DNA of 28,457 bases, taken from positions 1 through 28,457 of IMG/VR virus record IMGVR_UViG_3300042305_001508. One strand, 5' to 3'. Every line of letters starts with the position of its first letter. The stretch's first letter is position 1. The position numbers and the translations under genes are program-made. The DNA comes from a virus. The notes beneath the pieces are model-generated. The model was given only the letters and a program-made list of their open reading frames with translations, ran no database searches and was not told the DNA's origin. Of the stretch, positions 1 to 7,764 are shown piece by piece.

Positions 1-72
1 ATGCGACCAACGGTGCCGAGACAAGGAAAGCACGCGGCGATGGAGCGCCCTAGCGTCAGGGGTGCAACATGA
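1..72 (+). CDS. C-terminal end of a small upstream gene, cut by the window edge
   Basis: Frame 1 is open from the first base and stops with TGA at 70-72. Its last residues are basic (MRPTVPRQGKHAAMERPSVR then GAT). The stop overlaps the integrase ATG (69-71) as ATGA, the arrangement of two translationally coupled genes. A small gene just upstream of a phage integrase is often an excisionase or HTH protein, but nothing here is long enough to show a domain. An ATG at 1-3 would also allow a 23-residue peptide. Confidence 0.4.
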   Translation: MRPTVPRQGKHAAMERPSVRGAT

Positions 73-959
73 TTCGACGCGATCGACCACAAACGCTGCT
101 CGAGTTCCTAGACGACTACTGCCTGCGGCGGGACGTCAGGGCTGGAACCATCCGGCAATACCGAATAGTTGTCGATCTATTCGACCGCTGGGCCGGCCGC
201 CACGTCAGGCTCGACGAGCTGGACGAGCGGATGGTGTCGAAGTGGCTCCAGGCCTACTCCGCGACGGTGGCCCCGCACACTGTGCGGTCGAAGAAGGGCA
301 TGTTGCTCGCTCTGTGGCGAGCCGCGTCGGACGAGAATCTGTGCGAGGAGCCTCGCACGCGCCGCGTGCGTCGCGTCAGGCTACCGGAGCGTGTCGTCGT
401 CGCCTGGACGAAGGCCGAGGTAGAGAAGCTGCTGGCGGCATGCGTGACGCTCCCGCGGTGGCACCGCTGCGGACTGCGTCGTGCGGCCTGGTGGGATCTG
501 GCGATACGCGTCGCCTGGGATTCCGGCCTTCGCTGGGGCGATCTCGTCACGCTCCGCGTCGACGCGATCGGGCCGGAAGGTGCCTGCACCGTCTCGCAGA
601 GCAAGACGGGGCGAGTGGCGTCGTTCCGACTGTCGCCGAGCACGCTCGCAGCACTCCGCGAGTCTCTCGAGACGTGCCCCCGCAGCCTCGTGTGCCCGTG
701 GCCGACCAGCGGCGAGACGTTCCGCGACCAGGTCGACCGGTTGGTGGCGCGTGCCGGCATCAGACCAGGCACCTGGCGGTGGATTCGCCGTGGCAGTGGC
801 ACCGACGTGGAGCTGCAGGCCAGGGGGACGGGGCACATGCACCTTGGGAACACTCCTGCCGTGTTTCGGCAGTCCTACGAGGACCGGTCGCAGACCGGTT
901 CCGGGGTGCCGGCACCGCGAGAATTGGGCCGCCAGGGGCCGCCGCCAGAGGCGGCTTGA
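69..959 (+). CDS. int: Tyrosine recombinase / phage integrase
   Basis: 296 residues with the layout of a phage-type integrase: an N-terminal SAM-like core-binding domain (about 8-95, LLEFLDDYCLRRDVRAGTIR), a linker, then the catalytic domain (about 110-275). Visible catalytic residues are Arg155 in DSGLRWGDL, Lys179 in QSKTGR, Arg240 in WRWIRRG, His256 or His258 in GHMHLGNTPAVF, and the nucleophile Tyr270 in RQSYED. The usual HxxR box reads RxxR or WxxR here. It should catalyse insertion and excision of the element at an att site, which could not be located. AGGGG six bases before the ATG and the ATGA overlap support the start. Position at the edge of the early arm fits an element boundary near the window's left end. 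Confidence 0.92.
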   Translation: MIRRDRPQTLLEFLDDYCLRRDVRAGTIRQYRIVVDLFDRWAGRHVRLDELDERMVSKWLQAYSATVAPHTVRSKKGMLLALWRAASDENLCEEPRTRRVRRVRLPERVVVAWTKAEVEKLLAACVTLPRWHRCGLRRAAWWDLAIRVAWDSGLRWGDLVTLRVDAIGPEGACTVSQSKTGRVASFRLSPSTLAALRESLETCPRSLVCPWPTSGETFRDQVDRLVARAGIRPGTWRWIRRGSGTDVELQARGTGHMHLGNTPAVFRQSYEDRSQTGSGVPAPRELGRQGPPPEAA

Positions 960-1505: not shown

Positions 1506-1534
1506 TTGACAGCATATTTACCGATTGGTAATAT
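1506..1534 (+). promoter_or_regulatory. Early promoter P1, predicted leaderless
   Basis: TTGACA (1506-1511), a 17-bp spacer and TAATAT (1529-1534) form a near-consensus sigma-70 promoter. The spacer ends in CCGATTGG (1521-1528) touching the -10, inside a near-palindrome TTACCGATTGGTAA. An AT tract (GAAAAAG then seven T, 1481-1494) lies 11 bp upstream of the -35, as an UP element would. Only six bases separate the -10 from the ATG at 1541, so the transcript should begin at or beside the start codon. Confidence 0.85.
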
Positions 1535-2122: not shown

Positions 2123-2189
2123 CCGAACGAACATAACGCCCGAACCCGGCCGCGGGCGCCAACGGCCGGAAAACCAGGAGCCCGAAACT

Positions 2190-2420
2190 ATGAATCCGAT
2201 CGTCGACAAGCTGGCCGGCCTTGCCCTGGCCGGCCTCACCTACGCGGCCGCGGCCCTGGCCGCATGGCGGGATGAACTCGAGGCCGAGCTGGCCACCGGC
2301 CGCTCGCCGCTCGCCCGCGAGCGTGCCGCGGCCGCCCGGTGCCGCCCGTGCCCGGTGCCGCCGCCGGTGCCGCGCATGCTCGTGAACGGCCGCCCGGCCG
2401 TCGTCGTCGCCAGGTCGTGA
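2190..2420 (+). CDS. Small protein with one hydrophobic segment, unknown function
   Basis: 76 residues, not recognised. Residues 4-25 (IVDKLAGLALAGLTYAAAAL) could be a membrane segment or an amphipathic helix. A charged helix (RDELEAEL) and a proline-rich end with CRPCPVPPPVP follow. The start is set by AGGAGCCCGAAACTATG, a variant of the early-gene initiation module. It is probably co-transcribed from P1, 67 bases after the HTH gene. Confidence 0.55.
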   Translation: MNPIVDKLAGLALAGLTYAAAALAAWRDELEAELATGRSPLARERAAAARCRPCPVPPPVPRMLVNGRPAVVVARS

Positions 2421-2476
2421 ACGTCCGAACCCGAACCCATAGCCCGAACCCACAACCCCAGGAGCCCGAACCCATG
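2421..2476 (+). repeat. Three tandem copies of the CCCGAACCCAT initiation motif
   Basis: CCGAACCCATA (2431-2441), CCCGAACCCACA (2443-2454) and AGGAGCCCGAACCCATG (2460-2476) stand in a row. Only the last has both a Shine-Dalgarno and an ATG. The upstream copies look like decayed start regions. The same layout recurs before the genes at 5021, 5377, 5697, 6484 and 6728. Confidence 0.7.
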
Positions 2477-2830
2477 GCCGCCTATCGCATCATCCGAACC
2501 CCCGACGCCCGCAGCCGCGGCGCCGTTTCCTTCTACGACGTGGAAAGCATATCGCCCGACGGCCGCCGCTTATGTATTGCCACAGTCGACACTCGCGACG
2601 AGGCCCGCGACCTGGTCGCCAGGCTCGAGGCCGACGACTGCCGGCCGGCCATGCCTCAGGCAGAACTCGACTCGGCCACGGCCGCCGAGCTGGCCGCCGC
2701 TCGCGACCAGGCCGCACGCGTGCGGAACTGCCGGAAGGGTGCACACGGCCGCCACCTGGCCGCCCGCCGCTTGTGGGCAGCCCGTGCCGCCTACATCGCC
2801 GCCGACGAGGCCGCCGATTGCCGCTGGTAG
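2474..2830 (+). CDS. Small early protein, unknown function
   Basis: 118 residues, not recognised. The N-terminal half (YRIIRTPDARSRGAVSFYDV, then RLCIATVDTRDEARDLVARL) looks like a small beta-beta-alpha fold. The same TRD-x-x-R-D-x-V pattern occurs in the 93-residue protein at 5377 (TRDAVRDYV), so the two may be distantly related. The second half is alanine- and arginine-rich and helical. The start is fixed by AGGAGCCCGAACCCATG, the last of three tandem copies of the motif. Confidence 0.6.
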   Translation: MAAYRIIRTPDARSRGAVSFYDVESISPDGRRLCIATVDTRDEARDLVARLEADDCRPAMPQAELDSATAAELAAARDQAARVRNCRKGAHGRHLAARRLWAARAAYIAADEAADCRW

Positions 2831-2947
2831 CTGCGGCCTCCCGGCCACCGGCCGCCGATCGGCGGCCGGGCACCGGGGCGCCGGGCACGTCGCCCGACAA
2901 CCCACAACCCGCGGCCACAAGCCGCACAACACCAGGAGCCCGAACCC
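2831..2947 (+). repeat. Intercistronic spacer with a 22-bp palindrome
   Basis: CCGGCCGCCGATCGGCGGCC plus GG (2848-2869) is a perfect 22-bp palindrome whose core CCGATCGG matches the operator in the early promoters. A 19-mer with a 5-bp stem (2880-2898, contains CGGGCACGTCGCCCG) is repeated exactly at 5324-5342. AGGAGCCCGAACCC then leads into the ardC-like gene. No T-tract is seen. Confidence 0.55.
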
Positions 2948-3901
2948 ATGGCCGCACGCACCACAACCCGAACCGATCGCCCCGACGTCTATAAGACCGT
3001 AACCGATTCCATCATCGCCGCCCTCGAGGCCGGCAACGTGGCCCCCTGGCACAAGCCGTGGCAGGCCGGCCACGCCGCCGGCCCCGTCTCCCGGCCGCTC
3101 CGCCACAACGGCCAACCCTACCAAGGCGTCAACGTGCTCGTGCTTTGGATTGCCGCCGAGGCCAAAGGCTACACCGCGCCGCTTTGGCTGACATTCAAGC
3201 AGGCCCAAGAGCTGGGGGGCAACGTCCGCCGCGGCGAGAAGGGTACGACCGTAGTCTACGCGTCCACGTTCACGAAAGAGGAGACGCGAGCGGACGGCTC
3301 GACGGCCGAGCGCAAGATTCCATTCTTGAAAACCTACACCGTTTTCAATGCCGAACAATGCGACGGGCTCCCCGCGCATTACACGGCGCAGCTCCCGCCG
3401 CCCGCCGGCGACGTCAAGCCGCACGAGACCGCCGCCGCTTTCGCGGCCGCCACCGGCGCCGATATTCGCGCCGGCGGAGCCCGCGCGTACTACTCGCCGA
3501 GCGGCGACTATATCCAGGTTCCGCACGCGGCCGCGTTCGAGACGGCCGAGGCTCACGCGTGCACGACTCTACACGAGCTGGCCCACTGGACCGGCCACGC
3601 TTCGCGGCTCGACCGCGACCTGGCTGGAAAGTTTGAGCGGCACGCCTACGCGGCCGAGGAGCTGGTCGCCGAGCTGGCCGCGGCTTTCCTGGCCGCCGAC
3701 CTGGGGCTCGAGGCGAGCCCGCACCCGGAACACGTCAACTACCTGGCCGCCTGGCTCGAGGTCTTGAAAAACGACAAGCGCGCCATTTTCACCGCGGCCA
3801 GCGCCGCCAGCCGGGCGGCCGCATATTTGCACTCGCTGCAGCCGGGCGGCGCCGGCGACCAGGAGCCCGCCGAGACCGAGACCGAGACAGTCGACGCCTG
3901 A
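2948..3901 (+). CDS. ardC: ArdC-like antirestriction protein (ssDNA-binding domain plus zincin peptidase)
   Basis: 317 residues. The N-terminal domain (about 12-135: DVYKTVTDSIIAALEAGNVA, PWHKPW, LTFKQAQELGGNVRRGEKG) matches the ssDNA-binding ArdC/TraC-like domain. The C-terminal domain is a zinc metallopeptidase with HELAHWTGH (209-217) and a downstream acidic helix, YAAEELVAELAAAF, for the third ligand. Known family members protect incoming DNA from restriction or process DNA on entry, and are common on plasmids and phages. The tail (300-317) is acidic and disordered. The start follows AGGAGCCCGAACCC. An antirestriction gene early in the left arm fits expression soon after infection. Confidence 0.88.
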   Translation: MAARTTTRTDRPDVYKTVTDSIIAALEAGNVAPWHKPWQAGHAAGPVSRPLRHNGQPYQGVNVLVLWIAAEAKGYTAPLWLTFKQAQELGGNVRRGEKGTTVVYASTFTKEETRADGSTAERKIPFLKTYTVFNAEQCDGLPAHYTAQLPPPAGDVKPHETAAAFAAATGADIRAGGARAYYSPSGDYIQVPHAAAFETAEAHACTTLHELAHWTGHASRLDRDLAGKFERHAYAAEELVAELAAAFLAADLGLEASPHPEHVNYLAAWLEVLKNDKRAIFTAASAASRAAAYLHSLQPGGAGDQEPAETETETVDA

Positions 3902-3908
3902 CCGTGCC

Positions 3909-3962
3909 GCCGGGCCCGGCCGCCGTTGGCCGGGCCCGGCAAACCACCACCACCACCACCAC
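3909..3962 (+). repeat. 13-bp GC hairpin followed by an ACC microsatellite
   Basis: Arms 3909-3921 and 3928-3940 (GCCGGGCCCGGCC and its complement) pair perfectly around a GCCGTT loop. Each arm is itself nearly palindromic. A run of ACC/CAC triplets (about 3943-3962) follows instead of a T-tract. It may stop RNase, pause polymerase or serve Rho, but it is not a standard intrinsic terminator. Confidence 0.6.
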
Positions 3963-3979
3963 CCGAGGAGCCCGAACCA

Positions 3980-4219
3980 ATGACCGCCGCCCAATTTTGC
4001 CGCCTGGCCGCACGCTACGCGAACCTGGCCGACGACGTCCGCCACGCCGTCGACGCCCTGGCCATGGCCGACGCTCGCGAGGCCGACCGCCACGCCGCCC
4101 GCGGCACCGACGCCCGACGAGCGGCCGACCGATTCATGCTCGACCTCGACGCCGTCGGCGCCGCCGTCGGCCCGGCCCGGCCAACGGCCGCCCGTACCGT
4201 CCCGATGTTCGCCGACTGA
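3980..4219 (+). CDS. Small helical early protein, unknown function
   Basis: 79 residues, not recognised. It is largely helical and rich in Ala, Arg and Asp (MTAAQFCRLAARYANLADDV, then HAVDALAMADAREADRHAAR). The start is set by GAGGAGCCCGAACCAATG. An in-frame ATG at 3926 would add an artificial run of prolines from the ACC repeat and is rejected. The stop codon overlaps the AT tract of the next promoter (P2). Confidence 0.55.
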   Translation: MTAAQFCRLAARYANLADDVRHAVDALAMADAREADRHAARGTDARRAADRFMLDLDAVGAAVGPARPTAARTVPMFAD

Positions 4220-4237
4220 AAAACTTTTCCTGGCCAC

Positions 4238-4266
4238 TTGACACCATATTTTCCGATCGGTAATAT
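4238..4266 (+). promoter_or_regulatory. Early promoter P2 with CCGATCGG operator
   Basis: TTGACA (4238-4243), 17 bp, TAATAT (4261-4266). CCGATCGG (4253-4260) directly abuts the -10 box. An AT tract, GAAAAACTTTT (4218-4228), lies 9 bp upstream of the -35, as in P1 and P4. Transcription should start near 4273, leaving a leader of about 45 bases before the ATG at 4319. Confidence 0.85.
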
Positions 4267-4318
4267 ACACCAACCAACGCACGCGGCCGCGGCCGCACAA
4301 CTCGAGGAGCCCGAACCC

Positions 4319-4918
4319 ATGAGCACGATTCGTTTCAAGACGCTCGGAATCATCGACGAGCCCGGCCACTGCCAGCTTTGCGGCACCTACTGCCCGGCTC
4401 GCCGCGTCGCCGTGGAGCTGGTCGACACGGACGGCGCCGCCACCGGCGACGTTCAATACTGGGGCGTCGTATGCGCCGCCGAGGCCCGCAGCGGCCGCCG
4501 AGACTCGACCCTAGCCCGCCAACTGCGGCAGGAGGCCGAGGAGGCCGGCGCCTACGACACGGCCGGCCGCCCGCACGCCGGCCGCCGCTCGCGGCCGACC
4601 GTCCGCCGCCAGACTCGCCGCGATGCCGCAGCGGCGGCCGCTCGAGCCTTCACCGAGTCTCAAATCGTCTGGGCCCGCACGGCTGCCCCGGTGCCGGCCG
4701 AGCACGTCACCGAAACGGGAATCGACGCCGCCGCCTACCGATACCGCCAGACGCACCGCACGACCGCCGGCGCCTATTTCATGGCCGACGAGGCCGGCCG
4801 TCTGGCCGTCGTCGACGGTAGCGACGCCGCCGACGTTGAGCTGTTCACGCGGCACGGCTTCCGGCCGCACGAGGCCGGCCGGCTTTCCTTCTGGTTCCCC
4901 GAACCCGCGGCCGCATGA
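4319..4918 (+). CDS. Zinc-finger-like early protein, unknown function
   Basis: 199 residues, first gene after P2. CQLCGTYC at 18-25 plus a later cysteine (WGVVCAAEA, about 53) suggests one structural zinc site at the N-terminus. The middle (about 60-115) is Arg/Ala-rich and probably disordered. The C-terminal part (YFMADEAGRLAVVDGSDAAD onward) looks like a small alpha-beta domain ending in a WFPEP motif. The start follows GAGGAGCCCGAACCC. An in-frame ATG at 4238 lies inside the promoter and is rejected. Function unknown. Confidence 0.65.
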   Translation: MSTIRFKTLGIIDEPGHCQLCGTYCPARRVAVELVDTDGAATGDVQYWGVVCAAEARSGRRDSTLARQLRQEAEEAGAYDTAGRPHAGRRSRPTVRRQTRRDAAAAAARAFTESQIVWARTAAPVPAEHVTETGIDAAAYRYRQTHRTTAGAYFMADEAGRLAVVDGSDAADVELFTRHGFRPHEAGRLSFWFPEPAAA

Positions 4919-5020
4919 CGGCCGCCCCCCGCGCGCCTGGCCGCCTGGCCGGGCCCGCCGGGGCCGGCCGACTTCCGACCGACCCGAACCCATGACCCAT
5001 AGAACCAGGAGCCCGAACCC
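4919..5020 (+). other. Intercistronic spacer: hairpin plus duplicated start motif
   Basis: A GC-rich hairpin with one mismatch spans 4947-4969 (GGCCGG at 4947-4952 pairs with CCGGCC at 4964-4969). CCCGAACCCATG (4983-4994) lacks a Shine-Dalgarno and would open only a spurious frame. The working copy, AGGAGCCCGAACCCATG, ends at 5023. Confidence 0.5.
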
Positions 5021-5272
5021 ATGGCACGCACGACCACGAACGACCACGCCGAGCTGGCCCACTACGAGCCCCACGTCCGCCTAGCAATTCTGGCACACCG
5101 AGCGACCGACGAGGCCGAGCGGCTCCGCCGTCTGCTAGCCGCCGCCGAGGCCGCCGCCGAGGCCGCTTGGCGTCGCGTGCATGAGGCCTGGCCGGCCGAA
5201 CCGACGGCCGACGGCCGCGGCACGCTCGAGCACTGCGGCAGCATGGCAGAGCACCACGCCGGCCGCCGTTAG
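5021..5272 (+). CDS. Small coiled-coil protein, unknown function
   Basis: 83 residues, not recognised. Residues 24-58 (LAHRATDEAERLRRLLAAAE followed by AAAEAAWRRVHEAW) have a strong helical, coiled-coil-like heptad pattern. The start is fixed by AGGAGCCCGAACCCATG. It would be transcribed from P2. Confidence 0.55.
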   Translation: MARTTTNDHAELAHYEPHVRLAILAHRATDEAERLRRLLAAAEAAAEAAWRRVHEAWPAEPTADGRGTLEHCGSMAEHHAGRR

Positions 5273-5313
5273 CCGCGGCCCCCGGCCGCCGGCCGTGGCA
5301 CGAGCCGCGACCG

Positions 5314-5342
5314 GTGCCCGGCGGCCGGGCACGTCGCCCGAC
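5314..5342 (+). repeat. GC hairpin overlapping a 19-bp repeat
   Basis: GTGCCCGG (5314-5321) and CCGGGCAC (5325-5332) pair perfectly around CGG. GCCGGGCACGTCGCCCGAC (5324-5342) is an exact copy of 2880-2898. This spacer sits between the genes at 5021 and 5377 and has no T-tract. Confidence 0.5.
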
Positions 5343-5376
5343 CCCGAGCCTATAGCCAACCCAGGAGCCCGAACCC

Positions 5377-5658
5377 ATGGAACCGAACCAGCAGACTTTC
5401 CAGCACGGCACGACAACCACCCGAACCACGGCAGGGTACGAAATCCGCCGCCGCGGCCAGCTTGTCGGCCGCGTACATATCCGCACGACGGCCCGCGCCC
5501 GTTGGTCCGCCGACATTTTCGCCTACGACGGCTTCGCCTGGACGCTCGACCGACGCACGCCGCCGGCCACGCTCCTCAAGACTCGCGACGCCGTCCGCGA
5601 CTACGTCACCGCCTACGACAAGCACGCCTACGTCGCTTCCGGCGACTGCCACAGATAA
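5377..5658 (+). CDS. Small early protein, unknown function
   Basis: 93 residues, not recognised. It reads as beta strands followed by a helix (YEIRRRGQLVGRVHIRTTAR, WSADIFAYDGFAWTLDRRTP, LLKTRDAVRDYVTAYDKHAY). The TRDAVRDYV helix resembles one in the protein at 2474. The start follows AGGAGCCCGAACCC, with an imperfect motif copy (CCGAGCCTATAG) just upstream. Confidence 0.55.
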   Translation: MEPNQQTFQHGTTTTRTTAGYEIRRRGQLVGRVHIRTTARARWSADIFAYDGFAWTLDRRTPPATLLKTRDAVRDYVTAYDKHAYVASGDCHR

Positions 5659-5699
5659 CCCAGCCCGAACCCATAGCAAACCAGGAGCCCGAACCCATG
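5659..5699 (+). repeat. Duplicated start motif before the 5697 gene
   Basis: CCCGAACCCATAG (5664-5676) lies 21 bases upstream of AGGAGCCCGAACCCATG (5683-5699). The first copy has ATA in place of ATG and no Shine-Dalgarno. Confidence 0.65.
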
Positions 5700-6014
5700 A
5701 CCGTTACAAAGACGATCGACCACGCCGATTACCCACGCCGGTGCCGCCGCATGAGCGACGCCGAGCTGCTGTTCACGATCGCCGACTGCCAGCAAACGCT
5801 CGCCGCCTGGCCAGACTCGCCGAACGCAGGCTACTACCAGGACGAAATACACTACGCGGCCGCCGAGCTGGCCCGCCGCGAGCGCGGCGGAAAGCGCCGC
5901 CCACCCAGCCGCTACCGGCTCGAGGAGACCGCCCGCCATGACGAGATGATCGCCGCGGCCATGGACCGGCCAGGACCGGTGCTCGCCGATGGACCGTGGC
6001 CCGACTACGAATGA
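5697..6014 (+). CDS. Small early protein, unknown function
   Basis: 105 residues, not recognised. The N-terminal half contains a short helical unit (RRMSDAELLFTIADCQQTLA, then YYQDEIHYAAAELARRERGG), and the C-terminal half is basic then acidic (DGPWPDYE end). The pattern of a short helical protein with several Arg/Glu pairs suggests a protein- or nucleic-acid-binding accessory factor, without proof. The start follows AGGAGCCCGAACCC. Confidence 0.55.
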   Translation: MTVTKTIDHADYPRRCRRMSDAELLFTIADCQQTLAAWPDSPNAGYYQDEIHYAAAELARRERGGKRRPPSRYRLEETARHDEMIAAAMDRPGPVLADGPWPDYE

Positions 6015-6120
6015 CGGCCAACTAGCCCGGCCGGACAACCCGGCCGGGCGCCGAACCCATAGACAACCCGGCCCGAACCCATGGACAACCGACCGACAAC
6101 GCAGCCCGAACCCCGCCGGC
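6015..6120 (+). other. Spacer with hairpin and two non-functional start-motif copies
   Basis: CCCGGCCGG (6026-6034) and CCCGGCCGGG (6039-6048) are self-complementary and can pair. CCGAACCCATA (6051-6061) and CCCGAACCCATGG (6072-6084) follow, neither with AGGAG. The ATG at 6081 would open a frame overlapping the real HTH gene and is not credible. Confidence 0.5.
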
Positions 6121-6148
6121 TTGACCGCCGTGGCCGATCGGCAATAAT
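6121..6148 (+). promoter_or_regulatory. Early promoter P3, predicted leaderless
   Basis: TTGACC (6121-6126), 16 bp, AATAAT (6143-6148). CCGATCGG (6134-6141) lies one base before the -10. Six bases separate the -10 from the ATG at 6155, exactly as at P1. The -10 is weaker than in P1 and P2, and there is no upstream AT tract. Confidence 0.65.
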
Positions 6149-6154
6149 TCACCC

Positions 6155-6373
6155 ATGCCAAAGATCGACCCCGCCAATTACGTTTCAATTCAGACCGGCG
6201 CCCGCCTGGCCGGCATCAGCCGGCTCCACCTGCGCGAATGTATCAAGGCCGGCCGCATCCAGGGCATCGAGATCGACGGGTACTACTTCGCCCTGCGCAG
6301 CTCGTGCGAGAAGTTTGAGCGCGACCCCGTCGGCCGCGGCCGACCCCGAACCAGGCCGGCCGACGGCAGGTAG
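6155..6373 (+). CDS. Small excisionase-type HTH protein, predicted leaderless
   Basis: 72 residues. YVSIQTGARLAGISRLHLRE onward (10-52) fits the excisionase/MerR-like HTH, with a wing at GIEIDGYYFALRSS. The tail GRGRPRTRP (60-68) resembles an AT-hook, as in the regulator at 1541. The size is typical of phage excisionases, so Xis is one possibility and a Cro-like regulator another. It has no AGGAG module. The ATG sits six bases after the P3 -10, so the mRNA is probably leaderless. A longer overlapping frame from 6081 is rejected. Confidence 0.7.
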   Translation: MPKIDPANYVSIQTGARLAGISRLHLRECIKAGRIQGIEIDGYYFALRSSCEKFERDPVGRGRPRTRPADGR

Positions 6374-6408
6374 CCGGACAACCAACGGAAAACTTTTTGC
6401 CTCACCAC

Positions 6409-6437
6409 TTGACCCCTATTTGACCGAACGATAATAT
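6409..6437 (+). promoter_or_regulatory. Early promoter P4
   Basis: TTGACC (6409-6414), 17 bp, TAATAT (6432-6437). The operator-like stretch is diverged (CCGAACGA, 6424-6431) but abuts the -10 as in P1 and P2. GAAAACTTTTT (6388-6398) lies 10 bp upstream of the -35. The start should be near 6444, giving a leader of about 40 bases before the ATG at 6484. Confidence 0.8.
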
Positions 6438-6483
6438 AGGCCAGCGAGCACGACCGAACCCATAACCAACGGAGCCAGAGCCC

Positions 6484-6687
6484 ATGACCATCCGAGACAG
6501 AATCGACGCGATGAAGGCCGCTTGTGACGCCCGGCCGGTTGCCACGCTTTACGACGCCCTGCGGCAGCTTGGCCCAGGCATCCCCGCCGAGGAGCACGCC
6601 CGCCTGGCCCGCGCGATGATGCTCGACAGCATCGAGCGCCGCTGCGGCGAGGCCGCCGTCGACGCCCTGCTTGCCGAACTGGCCTAG
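6484..6687 (+). CDS. Small helical early protein, unknown function
   Basis: 67 residues, first gene after P4, not recognised. It is predicted helical throughout (MTIRDRIDAMKAACDARPVA, then YDALRQLGPGIPAEEHARLA). The start follows ACGGAGCCAGAGCCCATG, the most diverged copy of the initiation module. A CCGAACCCATAA copy lies just upstream (6454-6465). Confidence 0.55.
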   Translation: MTIRDRIDAMKAACDARPVATLYDALRQLGPGIPAEEHARLARAMMLDSIERRCGEAAVDALLAELA

Positions 6688-6727
6688 GAAACCTGCCCCG
6701 AACCCATAACCCAAGGAGCCCGAACCC

Positions 6728-6991
6728 ATGACCACACCCCGCACGAAATCCGGCCTGCTCCCGATCGGTACGAAAGTATGCGGCAGCGATGGTTTCACTC
6801 TCCGCGTCGGCCAGGTCGCCGATCACACTATCGACAAGTGGGGCACATGGCACGTCGTGGCCGTGGCCGGAAAGTTTGAGAAGATCGGCCACATCGGCGA
6901 CGCCGGCCAGCTCGGCATTGGCTGGAAGGTATGGACCGCACGCGACGGCCGACACGGCGACTCGAGCGGCCCCGCGTATACCGGCGACTGA
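6728..6991 (+). CDS. Small early protein, unknown function
   Basis: 87 residues, not recognised. It reads as a compact beta-rich domain (GTKVCGSDGFTLRVGQVADH, KWGTWHVVAVAGKFEKIGHI), perhaps SH3-like. The start follows AAGGAGCCCGAACCC, with a CCCGAACCCATAA copy 20 bases upstream. It is second in the P4 operon and just before the Prim-Pol gene. Confidence 0.55.
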   Translation: MTTPRTKSGLLPIGTKVCGSDGFTLRVGQVADHTIDKWGTWHVVAVAGKFEKIGHIGDAGQLGIGWKVWTARDGRHGDSSGPAYTGD

Positions 6992-7018
6992 TCATCAACA
7001 CCCAAGGAGCGCGAACCC

Positions 7019-7516
7019 ATGGACAACATGACCGAACTGGCCAACCTGGCCGCCGGCGGCGGCCGATTCGTCCGCCTGGCCCGTGGCGAGAAACGGCCGC
7101 TGGGCGCCGCCTGGCAGACGAAATCCACGGCCGACGTGGAGCAGGTGCAGGCCTGGCTCGACGCCGGCAGTAACGTCGGCCTGCTGCTGGGCCAGGTTTC
7201 CGGCCTGGTGGACGTTGAATACGACGAGCCCGCCGGCCTCGAGCAACTGGCCGCCTACGGGATAACCGACCTGCGAACCCCAGCCTGGCGATCCGCCAGG
7301 GGCGAGCACAGACTATTTCGCTGGGCACCCTGGATGCCGCCGACGGCGGCGCTCAAGGTGGATGGTATCGAAATACGGATCGGCGGCCGTGCAGCACAAT
7401 CCGTGCTTCCGCCGTCCAGGCATCCGGCCGGCAGCCGCTACGAATGGATCGTCCCGCCGTCGGAGTGCCCGGTGGCGGAGTTTCCCGCTCAACTTTTGGC
7501 GGGAGCCTACGCATGA
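7019..7516 (+). CDS. Stand-alone Prim-Pol domain protein (bifunctional DNA primase/polymerase N-terminal type)
   Basis: 165 residues, about the size of the Prim-Pol catalytic domain alone. Family features visible are an N-terminal G-x-x-x-R/K-P strand (LARGEKRPLGAAW, 20-32), the metal-binding acidic motif as VDVEYD (64-69; D-x-E in place of the common D-x-D), GEHRLFR (95-101) and SVLPPSRHPAGSRYEW (128-143). Such proteins make primers for replication and are usually fused or adjacent to a helicase. None is seen here, so a helicase from the host or outside the window would be needed. The start follows AAGGAGCGCGAACCC. The stop overlaps the next ATG as ATGA. Confidence 0.78.
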   Translation: MDNMTELANLAAGGGRFVRLARGEKRPLGAAWQTKSTADVEQVQAWLDAGSNVGLLLGQVSGLVDVEYDEPAGLEQLAAYGITDLRTPAWRSARGEHRLFRWAPWMPPTAALKVDGIEIRIGGRAAQSVLPPSRHPAGSRYEWIVPPSECPVAEFPAQLLAGAYA

Positions 7517-7764
7517 TCCGCGACGCCTTCCGTGCCATCCTCGCCGTGGCCGTGCTCGCCGCTTCCGCCGGCATCGTCATTGAGGCCCGGTTCCACCTGG
7601 CCGCGATCGACCTGGCACACAGGAACGCCACCGCCGGCCAGCAAACGGCCTGGCACGGCCATCCAATCGCCGCCCAGCCAGCCCAGCAAGAGCCAGGCCG
7701 CCTCCGCCAGCTCGGCCGGGCGGCATTGAACATGGCCGATGCAGCCTTGAACGTCGTCCGCTAG
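7513..7764 (+). CDS. Small single-pass membrane protein, unknown function
   Basis: 83 residues. MIRDAFRAILAVAVLAASAG and the next few residues form a signal anchor or membrane helix, followed by a polar domain with HRNATAG and QPAQQEPG. The ATG overlaps the Prim-Pol stop (ATGA), pointing to translational coupling. It is the last early gene. Its TAG stop lies in a CTAG that is also the stop of the convergent late gene. Confidence 0.6.
   Translation: MIRDAFRAILAVAVLAASAGIVIEARFHLAAIDLAHRNATAGQQTAWHGHPIAAQPAQQEPGRLRQLGRAALNMADAALNVVR
7761..7764. other. CTAG shared by two convergent stop codons
   Basis: TAG at 7762-7764 ends the plus-strand gene, and TAG read from 7763 to 7761 ends the minus-strand gene. 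No terminator fits between the arms, so early and late transcripts should run into each other. Confidence 0.85.

Follow-up and report, generated by a model that had tools for sequence, protein, structure and literature searches.

Why should the early genes of a phage begin, one after another, with almost the same 17 nucleotides, including a spacer behind the Shine-Dalgarno (SD) sequence that there is no usual reason to keep? The question is raised by IMG/VR record IMGVR_UViG_3300042305_001508, a viral record of 28,457 bases from an uncultured phage, which was analysed at its full length and is called the window here. Its small early genes form an operon on the + strand from 2190 to 7764, and the late genes follow it on the - strand. 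An initial annotation, made from the letters alone, had noted a common start module (AGGAG, spacer and ATG) at eleven early genes and had offered three explanations: a boundary sequence for the shuffling of gene cassettes, a site for a translation regulator, or a start signal tuned to the host. Here we report that the module is the 3' end of an intergenic linker of about 100 nt, and that two separate layers have to be told apart. With moderate confidence, we propose that the early genes are start-to-stop cassettes lying between such linkers, which would act as joints of exchange, and that the spacer is a start signal belonging to the lineage.

A uniform start module in one phage lineage

All eleven module starts are present as claimed, and all are ATG codons with an SD. 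The 17-mer AGGAGCCCGAACCCATG is found exactly at starts 2474, 2948, 4319, 5021, 5377, 5697 and 6728, with one mismatch at 3980 and 7019, and with two at 2190; the weakest module, CGGAGCCAGAGCCCATG at start 6484, has three differences from the 17-mer and lies beyond the mismatch limit of the search. Every match in the window is on the + strand, with none on the - strand and none at late genes, whose starts are ordinary and mostly overlapping, and a pattern-reversed control found no match in the window. With at most one mismatch allowed, the window has 33 copies of the 9-nt spacer CCCGAACCC, where 14.4 would be expected; none of 100 dinucleotide shuffles has as many (largest count 26), and the copies crowd into 2139-7018.

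Some of these copies cannot be complete modules. The CCGAACCCATA copies ending in ATA without AGGAG that the initial annotation had listed were confirmed, starting at 2431, 5665, 6051, 6454 and 6698, and two more module-like copies without AGGAG end in ATG (at 4992 and 6081). The most likely reading of those that end in ATA is that they have decayed or slipped within the A/C-rich leader, and they would be unable to act as starts. Two early genes are without a module: 7513-7764, whose start overlaps the preceding gene, and 6155-6373, a small gene that starts directly after a promoter-like -10 (TAAT) without an SD and is possibly leaderless. By eye only, the product of 6155-6373 looks like an excisionase (DNA-binding), and it has no Pfam match.

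Among related phages, all of them metagenome contigs and several near-identical, the exact 17-mer is multi-copy in four others from IMG/VR (L256/L389, L073, L050/L390 and L260/L392). A fifth contig, L388 (= L078), almost duplicates the window: its primase protein is 100% identical, and it has two 17-mer matches within two mismatches. The search of related phages that the initial annotation had advised found the motif in these contigs and in nothing else searched. Across 48 SD genes of five contigs, each position of the GAACCC that directly precedes the ATG is conserved in 44-48 of 48 genes, compared with 37-44 for AGGAG, even though the genes had been chosen for having an SD; label permutation gave 0 of 500. 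A uniform start is confined, among 80 contigs with the primase gene, to the window group, the others having a within-phage similarity of 0.2-0.6, and a second, weaker shared start, GACCGAGACC, is seen in L431 and L411. A weaker start flavour, AGGAGACCGAGACC, marks another branch (L431, L411, L443, L446 and L447), in which the same process is perhaps at an earlier stage. An apparent repeated start in L384 proved to be an ordinary coding repeat.

A preference of the host does not seem to account for this uniformity. A start signal tuned to the host is unsupported, and a host-wide start preference was rejected, because the 17-mer with one mismatch occurs at chance level and is never clustered in 392 genomes of Planctomycetota, the host being itself inferred. 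For GGAGCCCGAACCCATG, the matches listed from the GTDB contig set were only single and scattered, and ten Planctomycetota prophages sharing the portal have no module in their early regions, as far as these could be guessed, and rarely have A/C-rich leaders.

The module ends a linker with a covarying hairpin

Gaps before early genes fall into a short class and a class of about 70-120 nt, many near 100; before the module genes of the window, six measured gaps exceed 50 nt and four span 27-49 nt, whereas the start-associated sequences of cluster K mycobacteriophages (see below) mostly belong to genes with an upstream gap of more than 50 bp. The long gaps are built alike, with, from 5' to 3', a GC-rich hairpin at the stop codon, an A/C-rich leader, the ribosome-binding site or module, and the ATG. 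A minority of linkers, such as those with sites at 4238 and 6409, also contain promoter-like sequences.

An alignment was made of twenty hairpins that share a geometry (5 pairs, 1x1, 5 pairs, 3x3, about 8 pairs). Of their cells at 18 pairs, 92.7% are paired, 10 of the 18 pairs vary on both sides, and covariation is 0.342, compared with 0.087 after shuffling and at most 0.075 after sliding. A model built from these hairpins had 43 + strand matches in 23 contigs outside the model set, and its matches show an orientation preference. In the new contigs 95.1% of cells are paired and covariation is 0.417 against 0.100, in an alignment that was fitted to the model and leans towards structure. The hairpins of the window have a related but more diverged geometry, and only 2830-2891 matches the model (30 bits). 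Many linker hairpins, for example that at 4919-4970 of the window, carry regularly spaced C-C mismatches, as if perfect palindromes were avoided.

Comparison with known elements gave no match. An intrinsic terminator was rejected, as TTTT follows the hairpin in 0 of 41 strong-hairpin linkers, and Rfam gave no linker match above the gathering score, its two sub-threshold matches lying outside linkers and on the - strand. A search of 67 other ArdC contigs did not turn up the hairpin, and a genome search with it gave no match, which shows little by itself.

Gene content changes at the linkers

Compared with L256, its nearest full relative (ArdC 93% identical), the window has four differences in gene content, and all four break at a module, the place at which the initial annotation had advised looking for differences. 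Homology ends +2 to +16 nt from the module ATG; it is found again either shortly ahead of the following module or +3/+4 nt past a stop. Behind the linker at 4919-5020 the two phages have unrelated genes (83 and 172 aa), and the end of the gene before it is only 67% identical. The linker at 5273-5376 resembles one that occupies a different place and slot in L256 (90% identity), and L256:10532-10638 is 97% identical to L073:1885-1991, where the genes in the adjoining slots are unrelated by blastp. Shared linkers are 0.82-0.99 alike and the adjoining coding sequences 0.46-0.67, at or near background (0.48 for random 60-mers).

The same behaviour extends through a set of 256 linkers from the 80 contigs, in which 89 between-contig pairs are at least 80% alike with neither neighbour related. 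Within a contig, linker identity never exceeds 0.77, so none reaches 80%. Seventeen linker types recur in at least four contigs, the five largest having 20, 18, 15, 12 and 12 members, of which a contig almost always holds just one. Downstream these five adjoin 3-9 unrelated families and upstream 1-9, the single upstream family belonging to the fourth type, and the same type sits at different ranks from the primase gene. Because the same linker types stand between unrelated genes, with homology reaching no further than the ATG on one side and the stop codon on the other, they behave as joints for the exchange of single genes; differing within a genome and being shared between genomes is what would be expected of exchangeable joints that do not lead to internal deletion. 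A Sak4-like single-strand annealing ATPase, encoded by L256 and L261, is a plausible engine of the exchange.

One slot holds a 333-aa gene in some contigs and 183-aa or 77-aa genes in others, with the downstream linker kept (L450, L433 and L462 versus L459 and L453). By size and place the 333-aa gene is probably the ArdC-like one, and the genes that replace it could serve in anti-defence instead.

The spacer follows the lineage

Likeness of spacers and likeness of hairpins come apart. When a single hairpin type is compared across lineages, the hairpins have a similarity of 0.87 and the spacers one of 0.58. When hairpin types are compared with each other within the uniform lineage, the values are 0.47 for the hairpins and 0.94 for the spacers. 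Relatives without the uniform module swap genes likewise, with other spacers. The idea of a cassette boundary therefore has to be divided: it holds for the whole intergenic linker, given the breaks between the window and L256 and the near-identical linkers between unrelated genes, and fails for the spacer, which tracks lineage and not linker, the kind of outcome that the initial annotation itself had taken to speak against a boundary role.

Gene trees point the same way. ArdC is present in three of the uniform-module contigs, and in its tree these do not form one clade, L260 joining L258/L259 (98/98). In the F6 tree a single branch sets the uniform-module contigs apart (100/100), and the Prim-Pol tree agrees, weakly (59/90). 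This disagreement indicates that genes which move from one lineage to another have the spacer of the lineage in which they reside. The module is thus more than baggage of the cassettes, and something in the lineage keeps it uniform. Since the spacer follows lineage and not linker, it resembles a lineage-wide start signal, as do the start-associated sequences (SAS) of cluster K mycobacteriophages, and a lineage-specific start signal or translation-regulator site is the best remaining reading of the spacer itself. A phage antisense RNA to the module was considered and rejected, GGGTTCGGG-like copies on the same strand being few and in unrelated places; L256, L073 and L260 do not conserve the GGGTTCGGG-like copy that follows the early operon (7771).

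Proposed explanation and alternatives

We propose that each early gene is a start-to-stop cassette between linkers of about 100 nt. The linkers would serve as homology arms, through which co-infecting phages could exchange single genes by general recombination. On the RNA, the hairpin might close or process the end of the preceding gene, and the leader would keep the next start open, so that any inserted gene could be expressed. The spacer CCCGAACCC would be a start-associated signal, held uniform in trans by a ribosome-associated or phage factor, or else by ongoing gene conversion. What the hairpin does on the RNA, what the linkers do in recombination and what reads the spacer are all inferred from comparing sequences. 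A more specific form of the proposal, which we put forward tentatively, treats the linkers, with their covarying hairpin types, as shared, mutually orthogonal addresses, each used once per genome, at which any small early gene could be replaced by homologous exchange from start codon to stop codon; each lineage would add a uniform start signal of its own, read by a trans-acting factor that would bring acquired genes under the translation programme of the lineage.

Several points weigh against the cassette-and-linker proposal. No trans-acting factor for the spacer was found, and the Sak4-like recombinase was found in relatives, not in the truncated window contig. Exchange at gene edges is usual in phages; many of the 80 primase-gene contigs are near-copies, so that the counts are not of independent events; and 'unrelated' genes are those with no blastp match between short proteins. 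Linkers under strong RNA selection could look conserved, an explanation that is insufficient because alike linkers occur in different places (window 5273-5376 and L256 7863-7967). Metagenome assemblies can join at shared sequence, and such chimeras would mimic swaps at identical linkers; they are hard to invoke where the linkers are only 80-95% alike.

The alternatives each explain part of the evidence. One, which we judge unlikely, holds that the linkers are functional RNA elements, such as sites of RNase processing or 3' end hairpins, selected at fixed slots while genes diverge or change by illegitimate recombination, and that they are not recombination arms. Hairpin covariation, the orientation preference of the model, the position directly after the stop codon and the missing terminator T-run are all as this would predict. 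Fixed slots are at odds with a linker type that lies beside different genes on both sides and at different ranks from the primase gene, and with the match of window 5273-5376 to another slot of L256.

An equally unlikely account sees only an optimised, unstructured ribosome-binding site: a GC-rich phage needs an open A/C-rich leader, the spacer was copied by duplication, and the rest is ordinary mosaicism. Across the phage family the A/C fraction is 0.8-0.95 over most of -24..-15, start regions are more often unpaired (0.65) than those of late genes (0.45) or random regions (0.43), and other spacers serve the relatives well. Openness, which also speaks for the leader role in our own proposal, is only part of the story, since composition alone gives 0.58 in shuffled sequence, a value that 0.65 exceeds only modestly. 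The near-invariant GAACCC in five diverged contigs, the covarying hairpin and the sharing of linkers between unrelated genes are left unexplained.

That the 17-nt module is itself a recombination site for shuffling cassettes, as first suggested, now seems improbable. Breakpoints do lie at module ATGs, and all linkers of the lineage have no sequence in common other than the module; set against this are the same swaps in relatives without the uniform module, a spacer that does not travel with linkers, and same-contig linkers that stay at or below 0.77 identity, as if ectopic exchange were avoided. Integron-like (attC-like) or other site-specific recombination at the hairpins, brought to mind by single-gene cassettes each ending in an imperfect hairpin and by a tyrosine recombinase at 69-959, is very improbable and largely refuted, as the attC core GTTRRRY is present in 0 of 70 linkers, RYYYAAC is at shuffled level and the integrase matches general phage-integrase families only, weakly.

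Gene layout, host and other features

Features of the window are collected in Table 1. Most of the early genes tested against Pfam and PHROG have no family match. A promoter-like site of the form TTGAC-N..TATTT..CCGATCGG-TAATAT recurs in the window at 1506, 4238, 6121 and 6409 and is seen in 12 of 12 phages examined; the palindromic CCGATCGG, which lies between -35 and -10, is probably a phage operator. The helix-turn-helix gene stands directly behind one promoter/operator copy.

The host is likely, though not proven, to be a planctomycete, to judge from portal homologues in 41 of the 392 Planctomycetota genomes (identity mostly 46-51%). In the best-ranked isolated phages the portal is only about 30% identical, and a search for cultured relatives found no cultured phage close to this one.

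Table 1. Features of the window, with coordinates in the 28,457-base record
Feature	Position	Strand	Remark
Integrase-like gene (tyrosine recombinase)	69-959		general phage-integrase families only, weak matches
Promoter/operator TTGACAGCATATTTACCGATTGGTAATAT	1506..1534	+	related sites at 4238, 6121, 6409
Helix-turn-helix gene	1541-2122
Start module AGGAGCCCGAAACT-ATG, 2 mismatches	2176..2192	+	gene 2190-2420
CCGAACCCAT copy ending in ATA, without SD	2431..2441	+
Start module, exact	2460..2476	+	gene 2474-2830
Linker: hairpin 2835-2882, A/C-rich leader, module	2831..2947	+
Start module, exact	2934..2950	+	ArdC-like gene 2948-3901
ArdC-like antirestriction gene	2948-3901	+
Linker: 13-bp perfect hairpin 3909-3940, A/C-rich leader	3902..3979	+
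Start module, 1 mismatch	3966..3982	+	gene 3980-4219
Promoter linker: TTGACACCATATTTTCCGATCGGTAATAT at 4238, small GC hairpin, module	4220..4318	+
Start module, exact	4305..4321	+	gene 4319-4918
Linker: hairpin 4919-4970	4919..5020	+	99% identical to L256:9911-10012, downstream genes unrelated
Start module, exact	5007..5023	+	gene 5021-5272, slot gene; relatives hold unrelated genes there
Linker: hairpin 5277-5326	5273..5376	+	90% identical to L256:7863-7967, neither flanking gene related
Start module, exact	5363..5379	+	gene 5377-5658
Start module, exact	5683..5699	+	gene 5697-6014
Linker: hairpin 6025-6049, two module-like copies without AGGAG	6015..6080	+
Weakest start module CGGAGCCAGAGCCC-ATG	6470..6486	+	gene 6484-6687, absent from relative L256
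Start module, exact	6714..6730	+	gene 6728-6991
Start module, 1 mismatch	7005..7021	+	Prim-Pol gene 7019-7516
Primase/polymerase N-terminal domain (Prim-Pol) gene	7019-7516	+

Comparison with known systems

The role of SAS has been a question since 2011, and how single-gene mosaicism arises in phages is a matter of dispute. This phage family shows a start signal and gene swapping together, and its related contigs are numerous enough for the two to be told apart: swapping is explained by the linker and not by the spacer. Exchangeable early genes can be found by looking between two linkers, and one of them encodes an ArdC-like antirestriction protein.

Cluster K mycobacteriophages carry the SAS GGGATAGGAGCCC at the starts of non-structural genes, with paired 17-bp inverted repeats, the extended SAS (ESAS), upstream of about half of them (PMC3203893), and cluster EF Microbacterium phages have a similar set of SAS-like motifs (PMC7302621). 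Pope et al. left undecided whether SAS act alone or bind a factor, and found little support for RNA pairing of the inverted repeats (PMC3203893). The likeness to our module is considerable: a short, near-identical ribosome-binding sequence in one orientation at many non-structural genes, an SD core (AGGAG) with extra conserved bases that rRNA pairing does not explain, apparently no counterpart as a host motif (the 17-mer being at chance level in genomes of the probable host phylum), and inverted repeats upstream of part of the modules. However, the module consensus is AGGAGCCCGAACCC, not GGGATAGGAGCCC or GGGAAAGGACCCC, and only AGGAGCCC is common to both, which makes the module SAS-like and not a homologous SAS. 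Its conserved bases lie between the SD and the ATG; the upstream hairpins, unlike ESAS, are of several types that differ in kind and length, and they covary; gene swaps are seen directly at the linkers; and the phages are unrelated, with a host that is probably a planctomycete.

For the linkers, the nearest analogue is the promoter-early stem-loop (PeSL). PeSLs are said, in work attributed to Arbiol in 2010 and Comeau in 2014, to be mobile regulatory cassettes of T4-like phages. As cited in PMC4503421, they are likewise intergenic composites that contain a stem-loop and are proposed to shuffle small early genes; some of them have an early promoter, to which the promoter-like sites in a minority of our linkers may correspond. 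Our linkers differ in that most have neither promoter nor T-run terminator, in that linker types are distinct within a genome and common to several genomes, and in the uniform translation-start module that they add. Integron cassettes are set apart by the attC core, which the linkers lack. With the conserved boundary sequences of mosaic junctions in phages (cited in PMC3029335) the linkers share the principle that a short common sequence at gene borders allows general recombination; here, by comparison, the borders are whole linkers of about 100 nt, resolved to single genes across many related contigs.

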